Shown here: piece after piece, positions 3,378 through 35,181 of the stretch | How the letters are laid out: the number at the start of each line of letters is the position of its first letter | Position numbering within the stretch: position 1 is the stretch's first letter | From: a virus | Length of the DNA stretch: 39,892 nt | Strand: one strand, 5' to 3' | IMG/VR virus record: IMGVR_UViG_3300001737_000001 | Coordinates: 1 to 39,892 of that record | Notes under the pieces: model-generated | What the model was told of the DNA's origin: nothing | The model's input: only the letters and a program-made list of their open reading frames with translations | Database searches by the model: none | Position numbers and translations under genes: made by a program

Positions 3378-4357
3378 AAAAAATAAAAATAGGAGAAGGA
3401 AATATGAAAGTAGTTATAGAAACAGAAGAGAGTTTGAATTTTGAAATAAGTGGAGAAACTGTAAAGTTTAAAGTTTTAGTCAATGGTTCAAATAGAATAG
3501 TAGAAGATTTGAATGAAAAAAAAGGCTTAGAGATAAAAAAAGTAAATGCACACACTGTATCAGTAGGTGGACAAAAAATAAGCCTAAATAGCTTAGAGAA
3601 AATCAAAGGCAAAGATTATTTTGTTTATAAAAATTTACATACAAAAAAACATAAAATATCTTTAAGTAAAGATGATGCAGAAGGAAATGAAAAATTAGAA
3701 CTTATCGGTGGATTTCATTATGGACTTTATGATGAAAATTTTAAAGGCAATGAGGATATACCTAAAAAGTATGCAAAAAAGATTAGAGGTATTAATGCTT
3801 ATAGTATTTGGACACAAAATCATAAACCAAAATGTGATGCACAGGGAATGGTTTTTATTCCAAAACTTAAAATTTGGGTAGATATATACTTAACAAATTC
3901 AAACTATAAAGAGAATGGAACATCTGTATCGGAAGGAAAAATCTTAGCAGGTTGGAAAGCAGAAGGAAGAGAAACAGATGGAAGAGAAGAGTTGTTTTTA
4001 AAAGACTTTGTTGAGATAGGAGAAAGCTTTAATAAAAGATTATTAACAAAAAAAGAATTTGAAGTTTGTATGAAAGGTGTATCAGAAGGCAGAAGTGCAG
4101 GTAATATTGATGATGGAACAATACAACACATAGAGTTTTTAATGTCAAGATACGGAATAGAACAGGCAGTTGGAAATCAATGGGTTTGGAGCTTAGATAA
4201 ATATGAAGATAGAGATGATAGACAAGTGATTTTGGGTGGCTATCGTGACGTTGGCGTGCATGCAGGTTCTCGTTGTTCGCATTGGAGCGATTCTCTTTCG
4301 ACTTCGTATTGGGCTTTTGGTTCTCGTTTCGCTTGTGACAACTTGATACTTGACTAA
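3374..4357 (+). CDS. DGR-type variable protein with C-type-lectin/FGE-like C-terminus (early operon)
   Basis: A 327-residue protein whose C-terminal two thirds are homologous to the end of the tail fibre at 33686. Shared landmarks are GGFHYGL (about 116), RGIN..S.W, a WVDIYLTN-type strand, a QAVGNQWVW segment and the final VILGG...DAGSRC-like stretch ending in LILD. This is the formylglycine-enzyme/C-type-lectin fold used by DGR target proteins, whose variable residues form a ligand-binding face. The variable region is residues 285-327. The N-terminal domain (1-110) differs from the fibre's and is unrecognised. It lies in an early operon far from tail genes, so its ligand is unlikely to be simply a tail receptor (inference). 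A second start at 3404 also has a good ribosome site. Confidence 0.8.
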   Translation: MKKIKIGEGNMKVVIETEESLNFEISGETVKFKVLVNGSNRIVEDLNEKKGLEIKKVNAHTVSVGGQKISLNSLEKIKGKDYFVYKNLHTKKHKISLSKDDAEGNEKLELIGGFHYGLYDENFKGNEDIPKKYAKKIRGINAYSIWTQNHKPKCDAQGMVFIPKLKIWVDIYLTNSNYKENGTSVSEGKILAGWKAEGRETDGREELFLKDFVEIGESFNKRLLTKKEFEVCMKGVSEGRSAGNIDDGTIQHIEFLMSRYGIEQAVGNQWVWSLDKYEDRDDRQVILGGYRDVGVHAGSRCSHWSDSLSTSYWAFGSRFACDNLILD

Positions 4358-4374
4358 CGAACGAAAGTGAGTGG
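4226..4374 (+). repeat. DGR variable region 1 plus 3' homing-like end
   Basis: A 149-bp element aligned without gaps to 35033-35181. There are 18 mismatches; 17 are in coding sequence and fall in 12 codons: ten at codon position 1, six at position 2, one at position 3. Every variable codon is consistent with an AAT or AAC codon in a template whose adenines were changed. Conserved codons are CGT, TCG, TCT, GGC and GGT, rare elsewhere in this genome. The shared part continues past the stop codon (4355-4357) as CGAACGAAAGTGAGTGG, the position expected for an initiation-of-mutagenic-homing site. Confidence 0.8.
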
Positions 4375-4378
4375 TATT

Positions 4379-4636
4379 ATGAAAAAGCTTACACAGAAAA
4401 AATGGGTAGAGAGTGTATTGTTTGAAACAAATAAAATAAGCAGAAATCATTGTTTACAAAACTATGTATCAAGACTTGGAGCAATAATAGCAACTCTAAA
4501 AAGTGAAGGATATGAGTTTGAAGCAGACTATGTAGAATATCAAACACTTATGGGTTGGAGTGGAAAAGATTATGTGTACACAGTTACAAAGTTTCCAAAA
4601 GAAATACAGGAGAAAATAGATGCAAGGAATAAATAA
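4379..4636 (+). CDS. Helix-turn-helix protein (HTH_39-like)
   Basis: About 85 residues. The segment SRNHCLQNYVSRLGAIIATL followed by KSEGYEFE matches small phage winged-helix proteins of the HTH_39 type (ALxxYxISRLAxxIxxLRxxGYxIE), so it probably binds DNA. A GTG at 4367 inside the shared DGR element could add four residues (MSGI), but ATG 4379 is the safer start. It overlaps the next gene by 17 nt. It may regulate the early operon; that is inference from fold and position. Confidence 0.65.
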   Translation: MKKLTQKKWVESVLFETNKISRNHCLQNYVSRLGAIIATLKSEGYEFEADYVEYQTLMGWSGKDYVYTVTKFPKEIQEKIDARNK

Positions 4637-5000
4637 TTTATTAGAGTGTCCATTTTGTGAAAGCAACAATCAAAAACAAATAATTTCAGTAAATAGAATT
4701 AGTGAAAGTGAATGGAAAACAGATGGTTGTTATATAGAGTGTGAGTGCGGAGCAAGAAGCGGAAAAGAAGAAACACTAAATGATGCAGTAGCAAGATGGA
4801 ATAGAGATTATGAATATTTTATTAAAAAAGATGGAACACCAAATCTTTTTACAGTAAAATTTATAGCATACACAAAAGGATATAGTGGCTACAAAGGAGA
4901 AGAGCAGTATGAATTTGAAGCAGAAAATATGGAAGATGCAAGACATTGGGTTATAAATCATTTAGATTGTAGTTGCCAGTGGACTATAAAAGAACTATAA
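4620..5000 (+). CDS. Lar-like restriction alleviation family protein
   Basis: The N-terminal half has the Lar-type zinc-ribbon layout: CPFC at residues 10-13, CEC at 41-43, then DAVARWNR (56-62), equivalent to the AIxAWNxR tail of Lar-family domains. Lar of Rac prophage modulates type I restriction; most phage homologues are annotated by domain only and many may do something else. The C-terminal 60 residues form an extra domain (FTVKFIAYTKGYSGYKGEEQ) that I do not recognise. It is the last gene of the P2 operon, followed by a strong hairpin. Confidence 0.62.
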   Translation: MQGINNLLECPFCESNNQKQIISVNRISESEWKTDGCYIECECGARSGKEETLNDAVARWNRDYEYFIKKDGTPNLFTVKFIAYTKGYSGYKGEEQYEFEAENMEDARHWVINHLDCSCQWTIKEL

Positions 5001-5011
5001 TATAAACTACA

Positions 5012-5041
5012 GGAGTGCATAAAGTAACTACAATGCACTCC
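5012..5041 (+). terminator. Hairpin after P2 operon
   Basis: GGAGTGCAT (5012-5020), 12-nt loop, ATGCACTCC (5033-5041): a perfect 9-bp stem starting 12 nt after the Lar-like stop codon. On the + strand it is followed by A-rich rather than T-rich sequence, so it is not a textbook intrinsic terminator; it may be a transcript-stabilising 3' hairpin or a terminator needing a factor. Confidence 0.6.
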
Positions 5042-5059
5042 AAAAAACTACAAAAAGAA

Positions 5060-5138
5060 AACAAAAAGTTGTTAAAACAATCAAAAACACTTGACAAATA
5101 CACAAAAACTTGGTATAATTAGGGTATCAAAAGAAAGT
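5060..5138 (+). promoter_or_regulatory. Early promoter copy 3 (P3) with upstream inverted repeat
   Basis: The 57-bp promoter block occupies 5082-5138, with TTGACA 5091-5096 and TATAAT 5114-5119 (17-bp spacer). Just upstream, AACAA-AAAG-TTGTT (5060-5073) is the core of the operator-like repeat found before P2 and P4, but with 5-bp instead of 8-bp arms, because the left flank differs. Confidence 0.86.
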
Positions 5139-5150
5139 AAGGAGTTAAAA

Positions 5151-5372
5151 ATGGCAAAGAGATATGAAGTTAAATTCAATGGTGTAATTTTACTAAAATC
5201 ATCTACGAAAAGAGATGCAGAAGCATTTATGAGAAAGTTAAACAAAGACAATATGAGAATAAAAAAAATTGCACAAAAAATAGAAGATGAAGGTGGGCAA
5301 GTGTTTGGAACAGTTTACTTAGATAAAGTAGATGGGGATTATGAATATCCAATAAAACAAAAAAGGATTTAA
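5151..5372 (+). CDS. Small hypothetical protein, 73 aa
   Basis: First gene after P3; ATG 5151 follows an AAGGAG site, while an upstream start would lie inside the promoter. The sequence RYEVKFNGVILLKSSTKRDAEAFM is a strand-strand-helix pattern like that of the 62-aa protein at 3014. Basic overall. Function unknown. Confidence 0.72.
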   Translation: MAKRYEVKFNGVILLKSSTKRDAEAFMRKLNKDNMRIKKIAQKIEDEGGQVFGTVYLDKVDGDYEYPIKQKRI

Positions 5373-5373
5373 G

Positions 5374-5934
5374 TTGAAAAAGCTAACAGATAAACAAAAT
5401 GTGCAGATTGAAAGAAAAAGTGGAAGATTGAAAGATTTAGGAATTACAATAAAGTGTTACATTTTTGTAAGTGGATATGATAAAAATTCTACACATAGTG
5501 AAGATGTAACAGCATTTGGTTTACAACACAGTTCAATTCTAACAAAAGAAGATAACTCAAAAGATATTGAAGAGAAAGAAGCTTCAACACTTTTGGTAGA
5601 TGGAGAAATGGTTGAAATAGATGGTAAAAAATATGTTACACACTTAGCAGGGGATTATTCAGATGCTATATGGTTTAAAGAAGTTGGATACAAAGAATTA
5701 GTTGAGATTAATAAAAGTAAAAATTTACTTGAAGGTAGAATTACAAGAGGTGCTTATAAAGATTATATCGGTAGATTTTGTGAAAACTCTTCACAGGGGA
5801 AAACTTTTGTAGTCTTTAATGCAGATGGTAAAACAGTTGAAATAATAGATGCAGATAAAAGAATAGATAGTGAATACTTTGATAGCAAACAAGTATCTAA
5901 AATTTGGTTATCACAGTTTAGGAGAGAAAAGTAA
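5374..5934 (+). CDS. Hypothetical protein, 186 aa (TTG start)
   Basis: Begins with TTG 1 nt after the previous stop, with AAAGGA upstream. I do not recognise the family. It has several strands typical of a beta-rich protein (LLVDGEMVEIDGKKYVTHLAGD) and ends 1 nt into the next ATG (TAATG). The acidic/basic mix and lack of cysteines say little about function. Confidence 0.68.
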   Translation: MKKLTDKQNVQIERKSGRLKDLGITIKCYIFVSGYDKNSTHSEDVTAFGLQHSSILTKEDNSKDIEEKEASTLLVDGEMVEIDGKKYVTHLAGDYSDAIWFKEVGYKELVEINKSKNLLEGRITRGAYKDYIGRFCENSSQGKTFVVFNADGKTVEIIDADKRIDSEYFDSKQVSKIWLSQFRREK

Positions 5935-6242
5935 TGAAAGTTTGGAGAGAAAATTATGGTGCAGATGCAGATGGAAACAGAGGACAAATGGTAACAATGT
6001 ATGAACTTGAAGGAACAGATGCAGAAATTGAAGATATTGCAGAAATTTTATATGATAGTTTCATAGATGGAGAAGTGCAGGGATTAAAAGAAATTGAGTA
6101 TGAAGGATTGACTATAGAAGTTGAAATATCAGATTATCAAGATAAATTAATAGAAATTGCAGAAGCAGATGAAGATATTGATAAAGAGATTTTAGATTGG
6201 ATAAAAGAACTAAAAAAACATAATGCAGGAGAAACAAAATGA
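5934..6242 (+). CDS. Hypothetical acidic protein, 102 aa
   Basis: Very acidic small protein (IEIAEADEDIDKEILDWI), reminiscent in composition of DNA mimics or inhibitor proteins, but I see no diagnostic motif. Coupled on both sides (TAATG upstream, ATGA downstream), so it is part of the recombination operon after P3. Confidence 0.7.
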   Translation: MKVWRENYGADADGNRGQMVTMYELEGTDAEIEDIAEILYDSFIDGEVQGLKEIEYEGLTIEVEISDYQDKLIEIAEADEDIDKEILDWIKELKKHNAGETK

Positions 6243-6766
6243 GTGAAGAAAAAGTAGATAAAAAAGAGCAGAATTTATACTTATGGAAGCAAGTTCAAGA
6301 TACACCAAAAGAGCTAATAACAGAGTATGAAATTGAAGATGGTAAAAAGCTAAAAACAGTTGCACCAATAAACAAGATGAAAAAAGCTACAGAGATGTTT
6401 GGTGTATATGGTGCAACTTGGAAATTAGAAAAAATAGTGCATAGTGAAAAGACAATATTTAATAATTTGATATTGGCTTTAATAGATGCAGAATTTGTAG
6501 TTTATGATGAAGATAAGAAAACAGAAATTACAAGGTTTCAAATTTCAAATAGCACACCTATAGTTTCATTCGTTGATGATAAATTAAAAGTAAATTTTTC
6601 ATATAGAAAAGCACTTGAAACAGATACGATAAGTAAAGCATTATCAAGACTTGGATTTAATGCAGACACTTACACAGATACTGAAATACTAAGAACTAAA
6701 ACAGATGAAAAAGATGAATTACTTAATGCAGATTTTGTAGATATTGGAGAAAGTACAGATGAATAA
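6239..6766 (+). CDS. Candidate single-strand annealing protein (Sak/Rad52-like)
   Basis: A 175-residue protein with the pattern of small phage annealing proteins: an N-terminal YLWKQVQDTPKE, then INKMKKATEMFGVYGATWKL (about 41-60) and, late in the domain, TDTISKALSRLGFNAD (about 128-143), matching the TDAxxKALSxLGFxAD signature in Sak3-type proteins. These anneal complementary single strands and typically pair with a RecE/lambda-Exo nuclease; one is present at 72. The acidic tail (NADFVDIGESTDE) may contact partners such as SSB. Family assignment is by motif recall, not search. Confidence 0.62.
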   Translation: MSEEKVDKKEQNLYLWKQVQDTPKELITEYEIEDGKKLKTVAPINKMKKATEMFGVYGATWKLEKIVHSEKTIFNNLILALIDAEFVVYDEDKKTEITRFQISNSTPIVSFVDDKLKVNFSYRKALETDTISKALSRLGFNADTYTDTEILRTKTDEKDELLNADFVDIGESTDE

Positions 6767-7025
6767 ACAACATAACTTAATAGTGCAGTATTTACAGATA
6801 ATGCAGGAGCAGGAAAATATGATTAATGAGTTGAGCAAATCAAATGTTCAACTTGTTAAAAGAAATAATGAGCTGAAACAACACAAGAGAATGTACAAAG
6901 AAAATATACTTTATTGGAAAGCAGAACACGATAAATTACAACAGTGTTTGATTGATATAAAAGCAAAATGTGTAAATGTGTATGAAGCAAATGCAATAAG
7001 TATATATAAACAAAATCAAGGTTAA
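6759..7025 (+). CDS. Coiled-coil hypothetical protein, 88 aa
   Basis: ATG 6759 lies 8 nt before the end of the previous gene and has GGAG at a proper distance; a TTG at 6744 would add five residues. The sequence from about residue 10 to 65 is Gln/Glu/Lys/Asn-rich with heptad-like Leu/Ile, indicating a long coiled coil. No enzymatic motif. Possibly a scaffold or adaptor in the recombination cluster, by position only. Confidence 0.65.
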   Translation: MNKQHNLIVQYLQIMQEQENMINELSKSNVQLVKRNNELKQHKRMYKENILYWKAEHDKLQQCLIDIKAKCVNVYEANAISIYKQNQG

Positions 7026-7029
7026 AAAA

Positions 7030-7533
7030 ATGTACACAAAAGAAATGCAACTTGGAAAACCAAAAGCAAAAAAAGAAAGCACATTTGGAAAAAGACCATC
7101 AAGAGGAACATTTGGTAAAAAGCCTACAGTATGGAATAAAAAAGGTAAAAATTTAAAGCCAAAAGTAAAGAGAAATGATATTGTAGATGATAAATATTCA
7201 AAGTGGTTAGGAACTCAACCTTGTGCAGTTACTGGAATAGTTGCAGAAAGAGGAATGGGAGCTAACAACATACATTGCCATCATATACACGGAAGAACAC
7301 CTGTAAGAAATGATTACTTGCAAACACCTTTAATGGGATATATCCATAGTTGGGGATTTTCAAGTTATCATAGCAGTACAAAAGCAGATTTTATAAAGCA
7401 TAATAAATTACTTATAGATGATGTAATAGAATTTTTTGAAGATATAGCAAAGATGTATGTTGAAAAATATATAGATGAAGGCAATGAGATATTATGTAGC
7501 TATGATGATATTTTTAAAAAACAAAACAATTGA
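7030..7533 (+). CDS. NinG/DUF968-like HNH recombination nuclease candidate
   Basis: A very basic N-terminal arm (first ~55 residues, rich in Lys and FGKRP/FGKKP repeats) precedes an HNH-like core: CAVTGIVAERG, then CHHIHGRTPVRNDYL (about 83-97) and a later conserved His (YIHSWG). Phage proteins with this layout (NinG, DUF968) are Holliday-junction or structure-specific nucleases in recombination modules. The setting between an annealing protein and an SSB fits. The substrate remains unproven. Confidence 0.65.
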   Translation: MYTKEMQLGKPKAKKESTFGKRPSRGTFGKKPTVWNKKGKNLKPKVKRNDIVDDKYSKWLGTQPCAVTGIVAERGMGANNIHCHHIHGRTPVRNDYLQTPLMGYIHSWGFSSYHSSTKADFIKHNKLLIDDVIEFFEDIAKMYVEKYIDEGNEILCSYDDIFKKQNN

Positions 7534-7558
7534 TTTTTTGAGAAATTAATGGTATAAT
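7530..7558 (+). promoter_or_regulatory. Promoter before 7590
   Basis: TTGATT (7530-7535), 17-bp spacer, TGG then TATAAT (7553-7558), overlapping the stop codon of the HNH gene. It is a near-consensus sigma-70 promoter distinct from the four repeated early promoters, and would allow separate transcription of the 7590-9971 block. Confidence 0.7.
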
Positions 7559-7589
7559 TAAAAGAAATAAGAGAAAAAGGAAAAAACAA

Positions 7590-7961
7590 ATGAATAAAAC
7601 AGTTAAAGAGCTACTGAACATCAAAGATAGAGATGGAACTTATGCAAATGAAAATAGTGCATATACTTTTAGTCCTGATGAGGTAAAAGAATATTTTGGG
7701 GTTTCGCTAAATGCAGTTTATTCTAGTAGAGAGCATAGCAAATCTCAACAGATTAAAAAAGCAAAAGCAGAAAAAAATGGTACTGTATTTATTACAGACA
7801 AGTTAGACAAGCTTATGGCATTTGATAAGCTTAAAGAAGCTATAAAAAGAGATGAGAAAAACACAGTTAAAATAAGTGGAGATAAAGAAGGTTTGCTAAG
7901 TGGACTTGAAAATATCTTAGCAGAAGATAAAAACTATGAAATCTACTATAAGGAGATATAG
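7590..7961 (+). CDS. Hypothetical protein, 123 aa
   Basis: Good AAAGGAAAA ribosome site after the promoter at 7530. Residues 28-50 (SPDEVKEYFGVSLNAVYSSREH) read like a short helix-turn-helix, so DNA binding is possible; the rest is Lys/Glu-rich. The next gene begins immediately after the stop. Function not recognised. Confidence 0.68.
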   Translation: MNKTVKELLNIKDRDGTYANENSAYTFSPDEVKEYFGVSLNAVYSSREHSKSQQIKKAKAEKNGTVFITDKLDKLMAFDKLKEAIKRDEKNTVKISGDKEGLLSGLENILAEDKNYEIYYKEI

Positions 7962-8447
7962 ATGAAAAAGTTAGAGATACAAAAAAGCACATTAGTTGGA
8001 AAGCTTATTGAAGCAGTTGAATATAAGGATTTTGAGAAGCAAATAAAATCAGTTGATAACATTGCAGATACATTAGCAAAAGTTGATGAAACAATTGAAG
8101 CAAGAGTAGAAGAAGGGAAGGCTATAAAAAAAGATGTTGATACAACTTTGAAGCCTTACAAAACAGCAATGCAAATTATTAGAACAAACACAGCTTTGTA
8201 TATGCAGAAAAACAACATTGAAAAGATTGAGGGAATAAAATCAAAATCAATCACATTTCAAGCAGAAAAAAAAGTAATAACAACAGTTGCTAAAAAACAA
8301 ATATTAATAGGTAGAAAATATACTGATTTATCTGAAATAAGTTATGATAAATTAGTTGAAATGCTAGAAGAAAAAGGTGTAAAAACAAGAACAGTAACAG
8401 AAGATATTACAACAACAACTCCACAAAATATAAGGTTAATGAAATGA
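7962..8447 (+). CDS. Gp157-like hypothetical protein
   Basis: 161 residues with a long helical N-terminus (about 15-95, low in aromatic residues) followed by a beta-rich C-terminal part containing IEGIKSKSITFQAEKKV and a terminal strand. Siphovirus Gp157-like proteins share this helical hairpin plus KGIxSxxFxL-strand plan and sit beside SSB or annealing genes. The resemblance is moderate. It overlaps the SSB gene by 4 nt, supporting a role in the same replication/recombination set. Confidence 0.5.
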   Translation: MKKLEIQKSTLVGKLIEAVEYKDFEKQIKSVDNIADTLAKVDETIEARVEEGKAIKKDVDTTLKPYKTAMQIIRTNTALYMQKNNIEKIEGIKSKSITFQAEKKVITTVAKKQILIGRKYTDLSEISYDKLVEMLEEKGVKTRTVTEDITTTTPQNIRLMK

Positions 8448-8950
8448 TAATTAATTTAGAAGGTGTAGAAGTAGAAGATACTGAAAGAGTATATATAAAA
8501 AGAGAAGGACAAATTACTTTAAAAGCAGTAAAGGTAACAGAGCATAAATCAGCAAGTGGTTATCCTGCATTTAAAGTGCATTTTCAAGATAGAGCAGGTC
8601 ATTATGCAATAGATGAGTTTGTAGTTACAGAAAGTGCATTATGGAGAGTTAAGATGCTAACAAAAGCATTAAAGCTACCAAATACAGTAGATACAAATTT
8701 AGCAGTAGGAAGATATGTAGTTGCAACTTTTAAAGCAAAAGGTACACAAAATGGTGGACAAATATTTGAGATTAAAAAGTATGAGCCATCAAAACTTACG
8801 AATACTTATGAGCCACCAAAGTATCAAGCACCTGCACCAACATATCACGACCACAATAATAATGAAATATCAAAAGAACAGTTTGATGCAAACAATGCAA
8901 AAGCAAAAGCAGATATGGGAATTGATGATAATGATGAGATACCATTCTAG
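8444..8950 (+). CDS. ssb: Single-stranded DNA-binding protein
   Basis: About 100 residues of OB-fold-like strands (ITLKAVKVTEHKSASGYPAF, then VVATFKAKGTQNGGQIFEIK), a Pro/Gln/Asn-rich linker, and the tail DDNDEIPF. An acidic tail ending in IPF is the hallmark of bacterial SSB (D-D-D-I-P-F), the hook that recruits replication and repair partners. It protects single strands generated by the RecE-like nuclease. Divergent from cellular SSB in the core, so the call rests mainly on the tail, size and neighbours. Confidence 0.72.
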   Translation: MIINLEGVEVEDTERVYIKREGQITLKAVKVTEHKSASGYPAFKVHFQDRAGHYAIDEFVVTESALWRVKMLTKALKLPNTVDTNLAVGRYVVATFKAKGTQNGGQIFEIKKYEPSKLTNTYEPPKYQAPAPTYHDHNNNEISKEQFDANNAKAKADMGIDDNDEIPF

Positions 8951-8953
8951 AAG

Positions 8954-9160
8954 ATGGTTGATATAAGACAATTATTTTCAGCAAAAGATGAAAGTAATGG
9001 AGAACTATATGGAGCAGGTTGGGAAGATGCAATTTGCTTCATTATGGATAACTATGAAATAAAAGATAGAAATGGAGAGCCTATACAAATAGGCTTCAAT
9101 ATAGAAATAGATGAAGATGAAATAGTTAAAAAACTAATGGAGAAAAAAGATGAAAAATAA
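8954..9160 (+). CDS. Small hypothetical protein, 68 aa
   Basis: Starts 4 nt after the SSB stop and overlaps the MazG-like gene by 11 nt. Acidic; includes a GAGWEDAICFIMDNYEIKD segment and a second short acidic stretch. No family recognised. Tight packing and matching codon usage support it as a real gene. Confidence 0.66.
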   Translation: MVDIRQLFSAKDESNGELYGAGWEDAICFIMDNYEIKDRNGEPIQIGFNIEIDEDEIVKKLMEKKDEK

Positions 9161-9437
9161 AGTATTACAATGGGCAAAAGAAAAAGGGATTTTAGATAAA
9201 GCAACTCCAAAAGACCAAATGTTAAAAACAGTAGAAGAGGTTGGAGAGTTAGCAAATGCAATTGGAAAAAATGACAAAGAAGAAATAAAAGATGCAATAG
9301 GAGATATTGCGGTAACTATTATAATTCAAGCAGAATTAAATGGACTTGATTTTGATGAGTGCTTAGAGAGTGCCTATGAAATAATTGCAAAAAGAAAAGG
9401 CAAAATGGTTAATGGAATTTTTGTAAAAGAGAATTAG
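9150..9437 (+). CDS. MazG-like nucleotide pyrophosphohydrolase
   Basis: A 95-residue all-alpha NTP pyrophosphohydrolase. The metal-binding signature is clear: EEVGELANAI at 29-38 (EExxE) and, on the next helix, KDAIGDIAVT with D48 and D52. Enzymes of this family hydrolyse (d)NTPs to NMP and PPi; phage versions are thought to adjust nucleotide pools, remove dUTP or modified nucleotides, or lower ppGpp-linked stress. The substrate cannot be told from sequence. Length is normal for a single-domain phage MazG-like protein. Confidence 0.82.
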   Translation: MKNKVLQWAKEKGILDKATPKDQMLKTVEEVGELANAIGKNDKEEIKDAIGDIAVTIIIQAELNGLDFDECLESAYEIIAKRKGKMVNGIFVKEN

Positions 9438-9438
9438 T

Positions 9439-9624
9439 ATGACAAGTATTACTGGATTTTATCCAAAAGACATAGCAGTTAATGGCTTCGACCAAAAGGT
9501 TGAAGTCATTGATGTTTCAAGGGGAGAAATTGTATTTAGTTGGATAGATGAACACAAGGTAGATACAATGCAGGAAGATGAATTTGATATGATTTTTAAA
9601 AAGATAGATTATGAAAAAAAGTAA
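9439..9624 (+). CDS. Small hypothetical protein, 61 aa
   Basis: Starts 1 nt after the MazG-like stop. Short beta-rich sequence (VIDVSRGEIVFSWIDEHKVDTM) suggesting an SH3-like or small barrel fold, but without a motif I can name. It overlaps the next short ORF by 14 nt. Confidence 0.62.
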   Translation: MTSITGFYPKDIAVNGFDQKVEVIDVSRGEIVFSWIDEHKVDTMQEDEFDMIFKKIDYEKK

Positions 9625-9778
9625 AACTGGATTAAGAATAGTAAAAAAAGCAAAAGATAAACACATAAGAGCAACAATATATGGCTTTGTTTATGATGAT
9701 AGAAAAATAAATATGGAGAAAATAAATGAGAAACTTAACAGAAGCACTAAAGAAGAAAGTTTCAGAGATAGAAGATAA
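9611..9778 (+). CDS. Possible small basic protein, 55 aa
   Basis: ATG 9611 lies inside the end of the preceding gene and the ORF runs 53 nt into the next gene. It fills an otherwise empty 101-nt gap (9625-9725). The protein is basic (KKSKTGLRIVKKAKDKHIRA). The long overlap with 9726 lowers confidence; the C-terminal part may be untranslated chance. Confidence 0.4.
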   Translation: MKKSKTGLRIVKKAKDKHIRATIYGFVYDDRKINMEKINEKLNRSTKEESFRDRR

Positions 9779-9971
9779 GGCAGATTATGATGATTTAATG
9801 GAAAACATAAAGCTAAGTTCAGCACCACTTGAAATAAGACAAGAAGCAATAAACTACCTAAAAACACAACACCCACAATATGATGAAAAAAGACACACTC
9901 CAACAAAAGAAGTTTTACAAATGATTAAAGATGGAGAGTCGGATATATCAGATATTGGAAATGGTTACTAA
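9726..9971 (+). CDS. Small hypothetical protein, 81 aa
   Basis: Helical protein with GGAG ribosome site. N-terminal amphipathic helices (LTEALKKKVSEIEDKADYDD) and a short acidic tail. Unknown function. It is the last gene before the P4 promoter region and its stop lies 8 nt before the operator-like inverted repeat. Confidence 0.68.
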   Translation: MRNLTEALKKKVSEIEDKADYDDLMENIKLSSAPLEIRQEAINYLKTQHPQYDEKRHTPTKEVLQMIKDGESDISDIGNGY

Positions 9972-9978
9972 AAAAGAA

Positions 9979-9998
9979 TTTAACAAAAAGTTGTTAAA
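9979..9998. promoter_or_regulatory. Inverted repeat upstream of P4 (possible operator)
   Basis: TTTAACAA-AAAG-TTGTTAAA, identical to 2921-2940 and at the same 15-bp spacing from the -35 box. Identity of both arms, spacer and distance in two copies argues for a function rather than chance. Confidence 0.55.
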
Positions 9999-10003
9999 AC
10001 AAT

Positions 10004-10059
10004 CAAAAACACTTGACAAATACACAAAAACTTGGTATAATTAGGGTATCAAAAGAAAG
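10004..10059 (+). promoter_or_regulatory. Early promoter copy 4 (P4)
   Basis: TTGACA 10013-10018, 17-bp spacer, TATAAT 10036-10041 with TGG in front; matches the other three copies through the leader up to the ribosome site, which here is AAAAGGA rather than AAGGAG. It drives the block from 10074 towards the terminase genes. Confidence 0.88.
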
Positions 10060-10073
10060 AAAAGGATTTAAAG

Positions 10074-10529
10074 ATGGAAGCAGAAACAAGAATGTTAGTA
10101 TTGGCAGAATACTTAGGGATAAAAGAAGAAGATGTTGAAAATGAAATAATAGAAACTTCACATTGCGATAAAACATTTGAAGCAGAAGGTTGTGAGTATA
10201 TGGTGCTTACAGATGATGAAGCAGATGAGTATGCAAAAGAAAACATTGAGCAGTCAGTGTGGGCATTTGTTCCAAATTTTATTATTTCACACAGCGAGGT
10301 ATTAGACTATGATGATGCAAGTGAAGCTATAATAAAAGCAATTCAGGAGCAATGCGAAAACGGAAATGAAGCTATGACTAAACTAATTGATAATATGGAA
10401 GAGTTTATAGAAGATGCAAAACAGGCAGATGGAAGAGGGCATTTTATGAATTCTTATGATGGAGATGAAATAGAGATGTTTGGAAGTAAGGCAACAGCAG
10501 AAGATATGTATATTTACAGAATGAACTAA
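10074..10529 (+). CDS. Conserved phage hypothetical protein, 151 aa
   Basis: Acidic protein. The middle contains MVLTDDEADEYAKENIEQSVWAF, a pattern I recall from widespread phage/plasmid proteins of unknown function that also end with GDE.E.FG....YIYRMN-type residues, as this one does. No catalytic motif is evident. First gene after P4. Role unknown; an anti-host or regulatory role is possible but unsupported. Confidence 0.7.
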   Translation: MEAETRMLVLAEYLGIKEEDVENEIIETSHCDKTFEAEGCEYMVLTDDEADEYAKENIEQSVWAFVPNFIISHSEVLDYDDASEAIIKAIQEQCENGNEAMTKLIDNMEEFIEDAKQADGRGHFMNSYDGDEIEMFGSKATAEDMYIYRMN

Positions 10530-10539
10530 GGAGAAAAAT

Positions 10540-10989
10540 ATGAGAGCAAAAAAAGTAATATTATTAGATTTAAACAAAACATTGGCAGAAGAGATAAGTT
10601 GTAACTTTAGAACATTTACATATAATGTGGAAGGAGATGTTTACAGTAAGGCATTATCAGATGCAATTTGTAGAGGTTTTGAAATACACTTAGTTACAGC
10701 AAGAACAGACAACTATCAAGAGGAAACACTTGCTAAGATTGAAAAAGATTTAGGTTTAAAAATTGATGTTGCAGTATTTAAAAGTTATGCAAACAGATTT
10801 AAAAAAGTACACGACTTCAAAAGAGAATATGTTGAAAGACTTTTGATGAGTGGAGAATATGTTGCAGAAGATTTTATTGCAATTGAGAGCAATTTTACAA
10901 CACAGAGAGAATTTGAAAAACTTGGTATAAAAAGCATCTACACAAGAGTATCTTTCTTACAAATGTTAGCAGAACAAACAGGAGAATAA
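10540..10989 (+). CDS. HAD-like hydrolase domain protein with altered motif I
   Basis: The start VILLDLNKTL (7-15) is HAD motif I, D10-x-N12-x-T14; the second residue is Asn where phosphatases have Asp. Motif II is the VTART stretch (T53). The C-terminal motif, normally two acidic residues, appears as DFIAIESN (about 111-118). Phage HAD proteins of this size are often 5'(3')-nucleotidases or the phosphatase half of polynucleotide kinase. The changed motif I suggests altered chemistry or loss of phosphatase activity. It is followed 1 nt later by the methyltransferase gene, so the two are co-expressed. Confidence 0.7.
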   Translation: MRAKKVILLDLNKTLAEEISCNFRTFTYNVEGDVYSKALSDAICRGFEIHLVTARTDNYQEETLAKIEKDLGLKIDVAVFKSYANRFKKVHDFKREYVERLLMSGEYVAEDFIAIESNFTTQREFEKLGIKSIYTRVSFLQMLAEQTGE

Positions 10990-10990
10990 A

Positions 10991-11653: not shown

Positions 11654-11666
11654 TAAGGAGTTTATA

Positions 11667-25695: not shown

Positions 25696-25706
25696 GGAGT
25701 AAGATT

Positions 25707-26075: not shown

Positions 26076-26115
26076 CAACTCTTTGTTCTAATATTTTAAT
26101 AATAAGGATAACAAA

Positions 26116-26702: not shown

Positions 26703-26712
26703 CCATCTTTTT
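26646..26712 (+). terminator. Long-armed inverted repeat after the frameshift ORF
   Basis: AAAAAGATGGTTA (26646-26658) pairs perfectly with TAACCATCTTTTT (26700-26712), and inside it TTGAG (26664-26668) pairs with CTCAA (26688-26692). The right arm contains the stop codon of the frameshift product and ends in a T-run, so it looks like an unusual intrinsic terminator between chaperone and tape measure. Confidence 0.55.
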
Positions 26713-26738
26713 GTTATACTATTTAAGAATAATATAAT
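26711..26738 (+). promoter_or_regulatory. Promoter before tape measure gene
   Basis: TTGTTA (26711-26716), 16-bp spacer, TATAAT (26733-26738), 27 nt upstream of the tape measure ATG. Together with the preceding hairpin it may reset transcription between the chaperone and the late tail genes. Confidence 0.5.
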
Positions 26739-26764
26739 AAAGAGATGATACAGGAGATTTAAGA

Positions 26765-28717: not shown

Positions 28718-28718
28718 A

Positions 28719-29909
28719 ATGGCAAAAACACTACTTGTAAGCAAAATAGATAACATAGAGATTATGCAAGATGGAGATAGTGTTCTAACATCTGAAAATA
28801 AAAGCCACGAAAGCACAAAAGTTGTATTTGATGCAAGTGCAGAAACTAGCAAAGAAAGAGGAACAACAAAAACTGTAGATTTAGGTAAAGGTTCAGAGAA
28901 GCATAGTTTGAAGTTTTATGTACTTGACAGAAATCAAAATGATGCAATTTTGCACATAATAAGAGATTTGAGAACTTGTGTAATTACTGATAAGTACAAA
29001 GGTAAATTAACAGTTTATATTGATAGATACAAGATAACAGATAGTGATAAACATTTTGGTAAAACAGTATTTGAAATAGAATGTACAGTACAAGATGTAG
29101 AATACGCACCAACAGTAAACTACACAGCAAAATTAAAAAGTCAAGTTGCACAAATGGAATTGGAAATTGCAGAAAAAGTAAAAGAAATTGCAGAAAACGA
29201 AATAACAACAGTTGAAACTATTGTAGATGTTGCAACAGGTGCAGAAAATTTTGTAGATGATGTTATGAACACAATACAAAGCGGAATAAACGATATAGTC
29301 AGTTTGCAATCAGATGTACTAGATGCTTACAGTGGTGTAATGTCAAGGGTAAATAAGCTAAAGAGAATGGGAGAAACACTAAAAAATATAACAAAGTTTC
29401 CGCAAGATTTTATAGATTTAGTTATAGGTGCTACAAATGATAATAAAAAAACAAATGCACCAATATATGAAACTTTAGTAAGAGGTGTGGGGATAAGTAA
29501 AATCAATATAGATACTTTATCACAAATAGAATATATAGATGCAATGAAGCAGGAAAAAGCAAATCAGTTGAATAATTTAGTTGCATCAACAGCAGAAATT
29601 AAAAAAGCATTGAGTGATGATTTTGGTTCACAGCAAACATTTGAAACACATATAGAAATAGCATTAGAAAGACTTGCATATATTGGCTACAGCTATGAAG
29701 AAGTAGTTGATAAGCAACAGCTATTAAAAGCTTATGCAAATACACAAAAATATAGAAGTATGATTGAAATAGATATAACAACAACAAAGCCATTGACTGA
29801 AATAGTTTTTAATCTATATGGTAATTTAGATAATTATGATGAAATAGAAAAAATGAATGGATTTAAAGATAATGATATTGTTTATGGAACAGTAAAGGTT
29901 TATGAATGA
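28719..29909 (+). CDS. DNA circularisation protein (Mu gpN-like)
   Basis: 396 residues; starts 1 nt after the tape measure stop. The N-terminal ~130 residues have the DNA_circ_N plan: TKVVFDASAETSKERGTTKT, KFYVLDRNQNDAILHII, then FGKTVFEIECTVQDVEY. Despite the name, in Mu (gp43) this is a tail component at the baseplate hub. The middle is helical. The gene is followed by the gpP-like hub protein with a 4-nt overlap. Confidence 0.75.
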   Translation: MAKTLLVSKIDNIEIMQDGDSVLTSENKSHESTKVVFDASAETSKERGTTKTVDLGKGSEKHSLKFYVLDRNQNDAILHIIRDLRTCVITDKYKGKLTVYIDRYKITDSDKHFGKTVFEIECTVQDVEYAPTVNYTAKLKSQVAQMELEIAEKVKEIAENEITTVETIVDVATGAENFVDDVMNTIQSGINDIVSLQSDVLDAYSGVMSRVNKLKRMGETLKNITKFPQDFIDLVIGATNDNKKTNAPIYETLVRGVGISKINIDTLSQIEYIDAMKQEKANQLNNLVASTAEIKKALSDDFGSQQTFETHIEIALERLAYIGYSYEEVVDKQQLLKAYANTQKYRSMIEIDITTTKPLTEIVFNLYGNLDNYDEIEKMNGFKDNDIVYGTVKVYE

Positions 29910-30832
29910 AATTAGTAATAAATTCAGAATATGTAGCACTAGATGAAGTAAGTGCTACAATGAGCATACAAGACATAGCAAGGCAATTTACATTAGTAGA
30001 TATATCAAGCACTCAAAAATATTTTAAAGGAGATGTAGTAGAGATATATGATAATAGTGATGTATTGCAAATAAAAGCAGAAATAGAATATGTTAAAGCT
30101 ACAGGAGATGATAAAACAAGTGAGTTTATTTATGCAGGTAGAAACAATGCAAAATATATTGTTGATTGCTATGCAGACAAAACAATTCAATTTACAGAAA
30201 ATCAAAAACTAAATACTGTATTAGATGAAATAGCAAAAGGATTTGGATTAAAAATAACAGGAGATGCACAGTTACCAAAGAATGAAATAAAAACTATTTT
30301 AATTGGAGATAATATCGGAGAAGCATTTGTAGAAATAGTACATAGTGCAGGACAAATAATAACAAGTGATGCAATAGGAAATATAGTAATACAAGATAAA
30401 GCAGATGTTGAAAAAGATATAATATTTGAATATGGTAAAAATGTTAGAAAAAGAAATTTTATTGAAGATACAACAGAAGTATATGATAAATATGTAGTAG
30501 TGTCTCAAAGCAACTATTTAATAAAACAAAGTCAAGATACAAATATACAGGGAAGCTATGGAAGCGGAAAATTTGTAAAAGTAATGCTATCAAAACATAC
30601 ACTAACTGAAACAGAATGTGAAAAACTAGCAGAGATAGAATTTAAGAAAGACACAAAAAACTCTTTTGATTATTCAATAGTAACAGATGAGACAGACTTG
30701 ATTTTAAATGCGAAATATACAGTAATTGATAAAGCAATAGGATTAAATGAAGTTATGAAGTTAAGAACTATCGAAATGACAAAATCAACAAAAATAGATG
30801 AAGTAAGAATTTACTTAGAGAAAATATTATGA
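29906..30832 (+). CDS. Baseplate hub protein (Mu gpP/gp44-like)
   Basis: 308 residues. Hub fold of the gp27/gp44 type: early SIQDIARQFTLVDIS, GDVVEIYDNSDVLQIKAEIE, then a beta-rich core (IGDNIGEAFVEIVHSAGQII) and YDKYVVVSQSN near the middle. Overlaps both neighbours by 4 nt (ATGA). It forms the trimeric hub below the spike. Confidence 0.75.
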   Translation: MKLVINSEYVALDEVSATMSIQDIARQFTLVDISSTQKYFKGDVVEIYDNSDVLQIKAEIEYVKATGDDKTSEFIYAGRNNAKYIVDCYADKTIQFTENQKLNTVLDEIAKGFGLKITGDAQLPKNEIKTILIGDNIGEAFVEIVHSAGQIITSDAIGNIVIQDKADVEKDIIFEYGKNVRKRNFIEDTTEVYDKYVVVSQSNYLIKQSQDTNIQGSYGSGKFVKVMLSKHTLTETECEKLAEIEFKKDTKNSFDYSIVTDETDLILNAKYTVIDKAIGLNEVMKLRTIEMTKSTKIDEVRIYLEKIL

Positions 30833-31341
30833 TTAGATTTGGAATAATAAAAAAAACATTGAAGCCTTTTTTGGTTAGAATTTTAGGACTTGGCGGAGTT
30901 ACAGAAAATAGGTTTATAAGTCCAAAAGGTTTATTTAGTAAGCCATTAAATGAAAAGGCATTAATTATAAATTTATCAAGTGGAACAAATCAAGATGTAG
31001 CAATGGCACTTCAAAAAGATATATCATTAGAAGATGGAGATGTATATTTAACAGATGATAAAAGTTTTATACATTATCATTATGCTACAGGAGATATAAC
31101 TATGCAAACAAAGAAGTTAAAAGTTTTAACAGATGAAACAGAGCATACAACAAAAAAGTACACATTAAATACAGATGAATATACACTTAATTCAAAATCT
31201 ACAAATTTATTAAGTGAAACAACAGAAATTGGTGGAAGTGTTACAAATAATGGAACACCTATAGATGATACACATAAACATACTCAAACAGCAGGAGATG
31301 ATTATGGTGCAGGTGGAATTACTACACCACCAAATAGCTAG
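30829..31341 (+). CDS. Baseplate spike protein (Mu gpV/gp45-like) with HxH tip
   Basis: 170 residues. OB-like N-terminus followed by a beta-helix of repeated short strands (TLNTDEYTLNSKSTNLLSET, about 112-131) and the tip motif THKHT, with His149 and His151 forming the HxH that binds iron at the apex of contractile-tail spikes. It pierces the outer membrane. The length and motif match P2 gpV/Mu gp45. Confidence 0.82.
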   Translation: MIRFGIIKKTLKPFLVRILGLGGVTENRFISPKGLFSKPLNEKALIINLSSGTNQDVAMALQKDISLEDGDVYLTDDKSFIHYHYATGDITMQTKKLKVLTDETEHTTKKYTLNTDEYTLNSKSTNLLSETTEIGGSVTNNGTPIDDTHKHTQTAGDDYGAGGITTPPNS

Positions 31342-31350
31342 GAGCAAAAG

Positions 31351-31713
31351 ATGGATTTTTTATTAAGCGATAACTTAGATTTAAAAGTTGAAGATGGTAT
31401 AATTGGAGAACAAGCAGATGGAGAAACAACACTATTGACAGCTTTTTTTACAGATAAAAGAGTGAATGAGCAGAGAGGGTATTGGATTGATATTAAGTCA
31501 AGTGAAATATGGACATACGACCAAAGCAGATTAACAGATGAAATGGCTAGAAATTTGAGAGAAACAGCAAAACAAATAGCAGATGAGTTGGTAGATGAAA
31601 GTTTATACACAAAGATTGATACAGATGCTTACATAAGTGATGGACTAATGACACTTCATATTATGTGTTATGATAAAAAACAAATAGTTGTAGATAGAAA
31701 ATTCGCAATATAA
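31351..31713 (+). CDS. Baseplate protein (Mu gp46/gpW-like)
   Basis: 120 residues, gp25-like wedge family: LLSDNLDLKVEDGIIGEQAD, TTLLTAFFTDKRVNEQRGYW, then SRLTDEMARNLRETAKQIAD. This is the Mu gp46 pattern. It connects the sheath and hub at the baseplate. Ribosome site AGGAG. Confidence 0.8.
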   Translation: MDFLLSDNLDLKVEDGIIGEQADGETTLLTAFFTDKRVNEQRGYWIDIKSSEIWTYDQSRLTDEMARNLRETAKQIADELVDESLYTKIDTDAYISDGLMTLHIMCYDKKQIVVDRKFAI

Positions 31714-31716
31714 GGG

Positions 31717-32922
31717 GTGGGTATGAACGAGATATTAAATAAGCTAAAGGTTGATTTTCAATACTTAACAGGTTTTGTATATAAAGGTATGATAGCTTCA
31801 ATTGGAGCAGGTTTTGCTTCAAGATTAGCAGAGTTTGCAAGTAAGTTGAGTTTCATTGAAAGAAATGCTTTTATATCTACAGCAGATAAAGAGTATTTGT
31901 ATTTGCAAACAGGAAATTTATTGCCACCAAATGGAGCAGAAACAGCAGAAGGTTACGCAGTATTTTATGGAGATAGTGGTGCAATAATTCCAAAAGCGAC
32001 ACAGCTAAAAGATGACAAAGGAACTTTTGTAACATTAGCAGAAGCAACAATAAGCACAACAACACTAAGTGGAAATATTACAGTAGAAGATGGAATAGCA
32101 ACTTTAATATATCCATCTCACGAAATAACAAATTGCAGTGGAACAGCAAATGGAGCTTATGTAGATATAACAGTAATAGATGCAAACACAATACAATTTA
32201 CAGCAGGAAGTTTAGTAGATGGAGAAGCAGTAATTGTTAAAACTAAAAATACAGCAACAGTGCCTATAGTTTCAGAAGATAGTGGAGAAGTTGGAAATAG
32301 AAATTTAAATGATGTTTTAAAGCTTAAAATAACTATTGATGGGGTTGATAAAGAAGTAGGTGTTATATTGGTTTCAGGCGGAAAAGATGAGGAAGATGTG
32401 GAGAGCTACAGAGTAAGAGTTCAAGATTTTATAAGAAATCCACAAAGTCCATTTAATGATAATAATATTAAATATGTAACAAAAAAAAGTGTAAGCACAT
32501 TAAAATATGTATGGGTTGAAAGTCCAATAGAAGGAGAAGTGCAAGTAGTAGCACTAAATGAAAATTATGGATTAACAACAGGAGAAGCAGATGCAATAAA
32601 AATTGCAGTCAAAGCAATAGCACCTGCACAAATGGACACAACAGTAATAAGTGCAGTTTTACCTACAGTTCAAAGTGTACAAGTTGTGATAGCAGACTTA
32701 TATCCTGCAAGTGAAGGTTTGCAAAATGAAGTAGAAAAAAACATTAGATATATTTATGAAACAGATATGTATGAAAAAGGAATATCATCATCACTTTTAG
32801 AAGCAACGATATATAAAACTACAAGTGGAGCAGAAAAAGTTGAAAGTTTTACATTGGTAAGTGGAAGCACAGTTGCTACAGATAATACATTTTTCAAGTA
32901 CACAGGTACAACATTTGAATAG
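31717..32922 (+). CDS. Baseplate J-like protein (Mu gp47)
   Basis: 401 residues of the baseplate J/gp47 family: N-terminal helical part (FASRLAEFASKLSFIERNAF), YLYLQTGNLLPPNGAETAEG, a long beta-rich insertion (about 100-200), and the core GGKDEEDVESYRVRVQDFIR (about 225-244) with the AIAPAQMDTTVISAV stretch. J proteins form baseplate wedges. Confidence 0.85.
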   Translation: MGMNEILNKLKVDFQYLTGFVYKGMIASIGAGFASRLAEFASKLSFIERNAFISTADKEYLYLQTGNLLPPNGAETAEGYAVFYGDSGAIIPKATQLKDDKGTFVTLAEATISTTTLSGNITVEDGIATLIYPSHEITNCSGTANGAYVDITVIDANTIQFTAGSLVDGEAVIVKTKNTATVPIVSEDSGEVGNRNLNDVLKLKITIDGVDKEVGVILVSGGKDEEDVESYRVRVQDFIRNPQSPFNDNNIKYVTKKSVSTLKYVWVESPIEGEVQVVALNENYGLTTGEADAIKIAVKAIAPAQMDTTVISAVLPTVQSVQVVIADLYPASEGLQNEVEKNIRYIYETDMYEKGISSSLLEATIYKTTSGAEKVESFTLVSGSTVATDNTFFKYTGTTFE

Positions 32923-32931
32923 GATAATATT

Positions 32932-33675
32932 ATGAGTTTATGGTTTAACAGAGAAGGTCAAGATGAAATTTTATTAAAATATTTACCAAAAGGAAAAGTG
33001 TATAAACAGGCACATATTAAAGGAAGTAATTTTAATAAAATCATAAAGTGGATAGCAAGTGGTTTTACTTGGTTGGTAGATAAATATAATCAAACTTTCA
33101 AGGGATTGTATATTTGTGAAAGTGGATATTTGATAGAAGGTTTTAAAAAAGATTATGGAATACCAAACAGTGTATTTTATAATGCAGATGAAATTGAGCA
33201 TAGAAAAGATATATTTGCATTAAAATATCTAATGAAAGGAAATACAGAATGGCACTTTAGAGCAATAGCAAATTTATATGGTTATGATGTAGATGTGTAT
33301 AGTGGTAAAAGCTATTTCAAACAACATAGAATACCAAATAAAATACCACATAAATTATATGGGGATATTGAAAACATAAATAATATAATAGTGATAGTAT
33401 TTTATAATAAAGAGGTTTTACCTTTACCGCACACAATTCCACACAGGCTAGGGAGCGGATTAAAAATATCAAAAGTTAAAAAGATATTTGATATAATGAA
33501 ACAATCTCAAATTAAAATAATGTACAAAGACCCTACATTTACTTTAGTGACAGAGAATGTAACAGATTATATGCCTATAAGCATACCACATACACTAGGA
33601 AGTCAAGAAAAGATAACAACTGTATATGATGAGCAGGTAAATAATGAAAGAATAAAATTTTGTGTAAATCAATAA
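32932..33675 (+). CDS. Tail protein (Mu gp48/gpI-like)
   Basis: 247 residues. Starts with LWFNREGQDEILLKYLPKGK, the KxLLPPGxAW-like opening of gp48/tail protein I, then LIEGFKKDYGIPNSVF and two Pro-rich IPHKLYG/IPHTLGS copies, including IPHRLGSG. It links wedges to the fibre. Order J-I-fibre matches Mu. The gene before the fibre overlaps nothing, with an AAGGAG site ahead of the fibre. Confidence 0.72.
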   Translation: MSLWFNREGQDEILLKYLPKGKVYKQAHIKGSNFNKIIKWIASGFTWLVDKYNQTFKGLYICESGYLIEGFKKDYGIPNSVFYNADEIEHRKDIFALKYLMKGNTEWHFRAIANLYGYDVDVYSGKSYFKQHRIPNKIPHKLYGDIENINNIIVIVFYNKEVLPLPHTIPHRLGSGLKISKVKKIFDIMKQSQIKIMYKDPTFTLVTENVTDYMPISIPHTLGSQEKITTVYDEQVNNERIKFCVNQ

Positions 33676-33685
33676 GGAGATTTAA

Positions 33686-35164
33686 ATGTTAAATTACGGA
33701 ACAAAAATAGATAACAATGAAACGAGTGCAGGAGTTGTAGTAGCAAAAGAATACAACTCAATTATGAGTGAGCAGAAAAATACAGTATTGCCATTTTTGG
33801 GGCTAGATGAACTAGACAATAAACAGCAAGTAAAAGCAATAGATATTGCAAGTAAAGCTATGTATTATTCAGATACAGGAACAGCAAATAGTATTATATT
33901 GTCAAGAGGTGCAACAACAGAAACAATAGAAACACTATTTGAGGGAATGGTAATAATGTTCACACCTGCAAATATAAACACAGGTGCAACAACAATAAAA
34001 ATAAAAACACTTGATGCAAAGCCTTTATATTATGATGGTTCAGAATTAACAGCAGGTTTTTTAAGTTCAGAAAAAACATATACAGCAGTTTATTCAGTTG
34101 CGAATGGAAGATTTAATATACAAAAAAACTTTTCAGCAGGAGCAGAAGGTGGTGGAGTTTTAAATAATGCTTTTTCTAAGCCAGTAACAAAAGCACCATT
34201 ATTTCAAAAGGTAAATGCTTCAACAATAAAAGTTCCTAGTGCTACAAGTATTGTAGTTGATGGAGAAACTGTAACATTGGAAACAGATACAAACTTGTCT
34301 TTAGATACAAACCTTGATACAGGTATAAAAACAGCAGGTACTGATTATTATGTTTATGTAAAAACTGATGGAACATTGTATTTAAGTAGTGATAATAATA
34401 CAGGCTTAGGAAGAGTTATTGGTGGTTTTCATTATGGACTTGTAGGAGAAGCAGAAGTATCTACAGGCAGTAAAACTGAAACAATAATGACAGAGATAAG
34501 AGGTATAAATAAAAATTCATTTTGGGATTTAACTTGGCTACCTGCAAATGGAGATGCAAGAGGTATGCACTATAAGTTTGGAATATGGGTTGATATTTAC
34601 CAAACAGATGAAGATTATGGAATTAGAGGATATTCTAAGGCAGGTGGAAAAATTGCAGGTGGAACAACTGATTATGGAAGAGGAATACCAAAAATACCAT
34701 TAGTATTTGGTGGAGATGGAACTTTAACATACGGAAAATATACTTGGTTTCAGGCAAGTGAAGTTGGAAAAGCATTTAAGAAAAGACTTTTAAAATATGA
34801 AGAATTTATTGCATTTGCTTATGGAGTAGATGAAGGGAAATCATCATCAACTAATGGATATGAAACAACAGCAGGACAAATAGAGCATTATCCAAATTTA
34901 ACAAGTGCAACAGGAATGGAACAGGCAACAGGTGTTCAGTGGGTTTGGGGTGCAGATTTTGGAACTTCATCATCAGGAAGTTATAATAATATTACAGATG
35001 GAAGAGGTAGTGTATATACAAACGCAAATCCAGTGCGTTTGGGTGGCAGCCGTGGCAGTGGCGTGGATGCAGGTTCTCGTTGTTCGGATTGGAGCTATTC
35101 TCTTTCGAGTTCGGGTTGGTCTGTTGGTTCTCGTTTCGCTTGTGACCACTTGATACTTGACTAA
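33686..35164 (+). CDS. Tail fibre / DGR variable protein
   Basis: 492 residues. N-terminal fibre module (about 1-150; VIMFTPANINTGATTIKIKT typical of fibre attachment domains), a middle beta-rich part, then the C-type-lectin/FGE-like domain from RVIGGFHYGLVGE (about 243) through RGINKNSFWDLTW, TGMEQATGVQWVWG to the variable end VRLGGSRGSGVDAGSR (from 450) and the final LILD. Its last 43 residues are variable region 2. As in BPP-1 Mtd, this would be the receptor-binding tip whose variation changes host range (inference). Followed by Avd. Confidence 0.82.
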   Translation: MLNYGTKIDNNETSAGVVVAKEYNSIMSEQKNTVLPFLGLDELDNKQQVKAIDIASKAMYYSDTGTANSIILSRGATTETIETLFEGMVIMFTPANINTGATTIKIKTLDAKPLYYDGSELTAGFLSSEKTYTAVYSVANGRFNIQKNFSAGAEGGGVLNNAFSKPVTKAPLFQKVNASTIKVPSATSIVVDGETVTLETDTNLSLDTNLDTGIKTAGTDYYVYVKTDGTLYLSSDNNTGLGRVIGGFHYGLVGEAEVSTGSKTETIMTEIRGINKNSFWDLTWLPANGDARGMHYKFGIWVDIYQTDEDYGIRGYSKAGGKIAGGTTDYGRGIPKIPLVFGGDGTLTYGKYTWFQASEVGKAFKKRLLKYEEFIAFAYGVDEGKSSSTNGYETTAGQIEHYPNLTSATGMEQATGVQWVWGADFGTSSSGSYNNITDGRGSVYTNANPVRLGGSRGSGVDAGSRCSDWSYSLSSSGWSVGSRFACDHLILD

Positions 35165-35181
35165 CGAACGGAAGTGAGTGG
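35033..35181 (+). repeat. DGR variable region 2 plus 3' homing-like end
   Basis: The 149-bp partner of 4226-4374. It ends the fibre gene (stop 35162-35164) and continues as CGAACGGAAGTGAGTGG; the only difference from copy 1 after the stop is one A/G change. Adenine makes up about a tenth of the 129 coding bases here and about an eighth in copy 1, against a very A-rich genome. The shared element contains the GTG that could start the avd gene. Confidence 0.8.

Follow-up and report, generated by a model that had tools for sequence, protein, structure and literature searches.

The virus genome analysed here as one window (IMGVR_UViG_3300001737_000001; 39,892 nt, ~30% G+C) contains two distant genes that end in closely similar sequences, and these two gene ends almost certainly originated as variable regions (VRs) of a diversity-generating retroelement (DGR). 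The genome is closed, with an identical 93 bp at both ends, and apart from these genes is that of a myophage, with terminase, portal, capsid, sheath, tape measure, and baseplate genes recognized by Pfam and PHROGs. Its capsid protein, used as a query for sibling phages, retrieved none. The two matching stretches (4226-4374 and 35033-35181, 149 bp each, ~48-53% G+C) align without gaps and differ at 17 coding positions, distributed as 10, 6, and 1 over codon positions 1, 2, and 3, with every differing codon altering its residue (17/17 nonsynonymous). An initial annotation of the window had reported this alignment and these counts, and on recomputation every number was correct. The lone third-position mismatch sits in a TAT/AGC codon pair (4243/35050).

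Two Mtd-like genes and their target sites

The first stretch ends a short gene, mtd_S (3374..4357, plus strand, 327 aa), which is located among early genes and matches PHROG 11262 (tail protein, E 9e-43), with the Pfam family mtd_2nd just under the cut-off. The second ends a long tail gene, mtd_L (33686..35164, plus strand, 492 aa), which is placed after baseplate J and one subsequent tail gene and matches mtd_2nd (E 4e-16) and, over 159-492, PDB 1YU4 (E 2e-39). The two genes are paralogues with ~35% amino acid identity, mtd_S lacking the N-terminal region of mtd_L; for the AlphaFold model of mtd_S (pLDDT 67, with the VR region poorly modelled), the best Foldseek match is 1YU4, Mtd-U1 (E 4e-13), and five Mtd structures are the sole matches below 1e-3. 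Both genes are homologues of Mtd, the major tropism determinant of Bordetella phage BPP-1, and this homology together with the gene order after the baseplate genes suggests that mtd_L encodes a receptor-binding tail protein.

At each gene end the order of elements is the last template-like base (4339 and 35146), a short end, the stop codon, and a hairpin. VR1 (4226..4339) and VR2 (35033..35146), both on the plus strand, match sequence that is copied from the template repeat (TR) in relatives, as seen by comparison with the TRs. The initial annotation had taken all 149 bp as variable region, which stands for this part but not for 4340-4374 and 35147-35181, which comprise the target end and the hairpin and whose counterparts in relatives are conserved target-site sequence that differs from the TR. 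The short ends (VR1, 4340..4354, AACTTGATACTTGAC; VR2, 35147..35161, CACTTGATACTTGAC; plus strand), likewise different from the TR in relatives, were assigned at both sites as initiation of mutagenic homing (IMH)-like by their sequence likeness to known IMH. The hairpins, ACGAAC-GAAA-GTGAGT at VR1 (4357..4372) and ACGAAC-GGAA-GTGAGT at VR2 (35164..35179), again on the plus strand, have a GRNA loop and tandem G.A in the stem, and the one extra, non-coding mismatch between the stretches (4364 A vs 35171 G) lies within the loop and leaves the GRNA rule satisfied. The same target-site layout is found in relatives that carry the reverse transcriptase (RT), and in BPP-1 the hairpin, with the loop consensus 5'-GRNA, is important for efficient homing (PMC3240598).

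The tandem G.A mismatch around a GAAA or GGAA loop recurs in the hairpins of the window, L004, L006, L008, L010, L013, and G526. Such target hairpins resemble the very stable mini-hairpin d(GCGAAAGC). Short Mtd genes are present in the window (3374-4357), L209 (7749-8708), L014 (6432-7292), and L010 (11219-12193), and those of the window and G526 lie among early or replication-type genes and encode neither the N-terminal region nor an obvious signal peptide. Several early genes of the window, among them the operon containing mtd_S, are preceded by a 56-bp repeat (1-56, 2946-3001, 5082-5137, and 10004-10059) that carries a perfect TTGACA-17-TATAAT promoter.

One template in the relatives

A third VR- or TR-like copy was searched for in the window genome and none is present. 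We used as template the majority TR from four RT-bearing relatives, none of it from the window genome itself, and 13 of the 16 differing columns in 4226-4339 fall on its adenines (23 A among 114 columns; hypergeometric p = 1e-8). This rises to 15 of 16 with the closest TR (L045/G005), and a single non-A difference separates VR1 from VR2, whose constant bases include GGTTCTCGTTGTTCGAATTGG ... GGTTCTCGTTTCGCTTGTGA. The mismatch pattern and the adenine p-values rule out a chance repeat or drift as its source.

Complete cassettes in relatives provide the templates. In L004, mtd, avd, TR, and RT stand in the order of BPP-1, and VR and TR differ at 16 adenines and at 0 other bases. Genome G526 (3300036546_000131; closed, with 127 bp repeated at its ends) has a long and a short Mtd like the window as well as avd, TR, and RT, the last followed by a homologue of the window gene at 36198-36602. 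The initial annotation had proposed that alignment with related phages might uncover a template repeat; it does, and a single TR fits the VRs of both the long and the short gene in G526, G005/L045, 3300026512_000698/L047, G506, and G461. Non-A changes in the VR core number 0 in G526, G005/L045, and G506 and 1 in L047 (short gene) and G461 (long gene), so that the single non-A difference in the window resembles these two-target relatives, unlike the six in the short VR of G010. That one TR fits both VRs in several two-target relatives shows that the arrangement, in which a single template serves the tail gene and a short gene far away from it, is common to these genomes and not an oddity of the window.

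Both regions are VRs of a BPP-1/Mtd-type DGR: an error-prone RT wrote a single TR into the ends of both Mtd-like genes, with adenines randomized and the other bases kept. The relatives' TRs, the Mtd homology, and the intact target sites support the earlier proposal that adenine-specific retrohoming wrote both regions, and at the level of sequence they demonstrate that one TR was copied into both genes with randomization of adenines.

In G010, a Sulfurimonas metagenome-assembled genome with a broken RT, the short VR (L014 6484-6600, minus strand) is a chimera: agreement with the TR of the same genome is confined to the first ~90 bases, and the last ~24 match the TR type of other phages. The short mtd genes of L012 and L014 are 88% identical in their bodies and have VRs of different TR types, as if templates differed. 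A further candidate, L037, proved to be a chance pattern match and not a DGR.

The emptied cassette slot

Directly downstream of mtd_L lies avd (35186..35596, plus strand, from the ATG at 35186 in an open reading frame (ORF) that opens with GTG at 35174), identified by Pfam bAvd (E 2e-21), PHROG 3206, and the PDB entries 4DWL (Bbp7) and 8UB7 (Avd). We considered whether this Avd is a decayed remnant and found no support, its long loop also being present in the Avd of the RT-bearing L058 in the alignment. By the gene order mtd-avd-TR-RT-next gene of G526 and L004, the adjoining 35597..36197 (plus strand) is the slot of TR and RT, both of which are absent in the window. Here, at the place of TR and RT in G526, the slot consists of 94 intergenic bases and an HNH endonuclease gene (HNH_3; 35691..36182, plus strand), a homologue of which, 56% identical, occupies the same slot of the RT-less L011. 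The conserved gene at 36198..36602 (plus strand), which directly follows the RT in RT-bearing relatives, marks the right boundary of the lost cassette.

Searches of the window genome for an RT, with the RVT_1 profile and by tblastn with two DGR RTs, were negative. A hidden RT was also rejected on the grounds that the ORFs >250 aa are assigned by Pfam or PHROGs except 28719-29909, which is flanked by the tape measure and baseplate genes and matches no Pfam family. The DGR of the window is incomplete, consisting of the targets and an Avd: the phage has lost TR and RT, an HNH endonuclease gene is now in their slot, and both target sites and Avd are retained. Close to the genes for the tail assembly chaperone and the spanin are two more HNH-type endonuclease genes (36612-37199 and 38227-38730), giving three such genes within 3.1 kb.

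Among the Mtd loci of the viral collection, most carry mtd-hairpin-avd-TR-RT and many are without the core; cassette deletions are frequent in the group (L033, L069, L071, L076, and G001). In L033 and L069 the deletions run from avd into the RT end. In L071 (7870-8889) the RT begins with the start residues of Avd, joined in a shared EK-I motif, and the remaining avd and the TR are gone, while L076 retains an RT fragment. The 93-kb L011 has, beside its HNH gene in the same slot as in the window, a shortened avd, and in L003 (11014-11664) and L036 (downstream of the VR) a GIY-YIG-type gene is in the slot and the hairpin is missing, the L003 match being just below the Pfam cut-off and L036 being assigned by likeness to L003. 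Homing-type endonuclease genes thus replace the lost DGR core in four phages (L003, L036, the window at 35691-36182, and L011 at 2441-2905, minus strand), and their recurrence in the emptied slot suggests a route of cassette displacement.

Possible trans writing and its alternatives

Fourfold degenerate sites bear on when the VRs were last written. Between VR1 and VR2, 19/19 such sites are identical vs 20/33 in the rest of both genes (Fisher p = 0.0009). The sister genome G001 (L002) is 83% identical to the window in mtd_L and ~72% in aligned DNA genome-wide; it is closed by 127 bp, is without RT and TR, has no short mtd, and has a lesion different from that of the window, namely a deletion from mid-avd to the same downstream gene. 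The two mtd_L genes agree at 17/17 fourfold sites in the VR and at 127/170 in the body (p = 0.009). The window thus has the pattern of RT-bearing two-target genomes such as G005 (18/18 in the VR vs 17/41), while the short VR of G010, with its broken RT, has six non-A differences from the TR. The last writing of the VRs was later than much of the divergence of the window and G001, though both are without RT.

Change after cassette loss can be followed in a second RT-less pair, G518 (42.9 kb) and G519 (22.1 kb), which come from different samples and have no RT, avd, or TR in either genome. The two are circularly permuted, and because G519 spans both ends of G518, the latter is most likely a whole circular genome. 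Outside mtd they differ at 29 positions per ~19,500 aligned bases (~99.85% identity), with 0 mismatches over >3 kb downstream of the VR and 225 identical bases upstream. The VR, by comparison, contains 9 mismatches in 8 codons, all nonsynonymous and at codon positions 1 and 2, and 9/9 fall on TR adenines of five RT-bearing relatives (p = 5e-7 to 7e-7). The same kind of change is seen in near-clones from other samples that do carry the RT, with 6-15 changes in the VR and 0-4 in the flanks; a single RT-less pair lacking the hairpin (L111/L118) shows no VR-only change. On the plain reading, the VRs of G518 and G519 were rewritten after their shared loss, and hence would have been rewritten by a machine encoded elsewhere.

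We suggest that the window phage is likewise a target-only client, whose VRs would be rewritten in cells where a prophage or co-infecting phage carries a same-lineage DGR and supplies RT and TR in trans. In BPP-1, target sites have been transplanted successfully with the donor on a plasmid of its own (PMC3240598). Conceivable donors are G461 (a 192-kb contig) and G506, RT-bearing prophages with both mtd genes and the full cassette in Campylobacterota genomes, and the host of the window phage may itself belong to the Campylobacterota, to judge from the named relatives L013 (Helicobacteraceae) and L014 (Sulfurimonas). For the present-day window phage we give trans writing a modest edge over freezing, for three reasons: the target sites and Avd have been kept, the writing postdates much of the split from a sister also without RT, and the comparable RT-less pair G518/G519 changed in exactly this way. 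On balance we lean toward the whole chain, up to and including writing by a co-resident DGR, its trans step being carried over from G518/G519, a different RT-less pair.

Several observations weigh against trans writing. Searches of the viral collection, the genome collection, 399 Campylobacterales genomes, phages, and plasmids yielded no donor TR of exactly the type seen in the window; the reconstructed TR matched only Butyrivibrio phages, at 74%. L003 is without target end and hairpin, yet its VR matches that of L008 at 19/19 fourfold sites, and because this VR is pristine despite the lost target end, we rejected perfect fourfold identity as proving present activity; it limits only how long ago the last writing can have taken place. 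In addition, G518 and G519 differ by a recombined mtd block upstream of the VR (1211-1571, ~360 bases; L059 vs L067), in which the otherwise near-identical phages diverge strongly, so that import of a VR by recombination is an alternative for this pair.

A serious alternative, which we hold to be somewhat less likely, is that the window carries a frozen relic, in which TR and RT were recently lost and the VRs are snapshots of past activity that no longer change. The missing RT and TR, the frequency of cassette deletions in the group, the failure to find a donor in the collections searched, and the pristine VR of L003 are all in keeping with such freezing. However, the phage still has both hairpins, the IMH-like ends, and an Avd that shows no obvious decay, the last writing was later than much of the divergence between two RT-less genomes, and G518/G519 seem to have diversified after loss. 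The initial annotation had predicted elevated variants at the mismatched codons in population reads; these would be expected only if a DGR acts in trans, as the pattern also fits a recently lost, frozen DGR. Less probably, RT-bearing members of the population diversify their VRs and homologous recombination brings the finished VRs into RT-less genomes, with no retrohoming in trans. The block at 1211-1571 proves that alleles are exchanged, and the window encodes an exonuclease VIII-like protein; we nevertheless consider this unlikely, since the changed tract in G518/G519 is bounded by the 225 and >3 kb of identical bases and a donor would have to share these flanks. That RT and TR are present but were missed, through misassembly or a deletion variant from a mixed population, is very improbable: VRs are known to disturb assembly (PMC8008677), but the genome is closed by its end repeat, the gene order from avd through HNH to 36198 is unbroken, the sister G001, closed independently, is likewise without RT and bears another lesion, and the RVT_1 and tblastn searches were negative. 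Finally, a history of ordinary gene duplication or conversion in which positive selection acted on a lectin-like domain, to which the paralogy of mtd_S and mtd_L might point, has practically no probability; comparison with the TRs of G526 and the other two-target relatives refutes it, as conversion would erase the A-site differences and drift or selection would not restrict changes to template adenines while leaving all fourfold sites identical.

The window resembles the BPP-1 DGR (mtd-avd-TR-brt) in its Mtd-family target, 3'-end VR, IMH-like end, GRNA-loop hairpin, and Avd directly downstream, and the BPP-1 cassette order is complete in L004 and G526; unlike BPP-1, it is without TR and RT, has two targets, one of them remote and short, and has an HNH gene replacing TR-RT. 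The Quimbyvirus DGR (PMC8008677) similarly has two C-type-lectin targets per DGR, one of them structural and the other at a different place in the genome, but it retains a TR and a (frameshifted) RT. In phages nd4 and nd12, with their tentaclins (PMC10743442), two VRs are written from one TR in the same phage genome, as in the relatives of the window, whereas the VR of target 1 is near the 5' end and the cassettes are complete. Nanoarchaeota also have VRs with adenine mutations at sites that lack an RT gene, and the authors leave undecided whether these VRs are fossils or are diversified remotely (PMC4372165); these, however, are cellular genomes with DGRs elsewhere, whereas the window and its sister are closed genomes of phages and are devoid of both RT and TR. 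In a partial search of the literature, no paper was found to describe closed phage genomes that lack the RT but keep their DGR targets intact, or homing endonucleases at the DGR slot.

The authors of a large metagenomic DGR survey state that remote targets are undetectable by their approach (PMC8144416), and surveys that start from the RT are blind to target-only phages. We tentatively propose that such phages may form a stable class of DGR clients, which keep VR, IMH, hairpin, and often Avd without TR and RT, whose receptor genes would be diversified by the DGRs of prophages or co-infecting phages, and in which TR and RT may have been dropped repeatedly to homing endonucleases or short-repeat deletions. 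G518 and G519 make trans writing testable now, being near-clonal RT-less genomes in which nine VR substitutions at template adenines are the only changes in a >3-kb stretch. If the VRs of RT-less phages are indeed rewritten in trans, loss of the cassette need not stop diversification, and hypermutation would be a resource shared by co-resident phages and not a private one.

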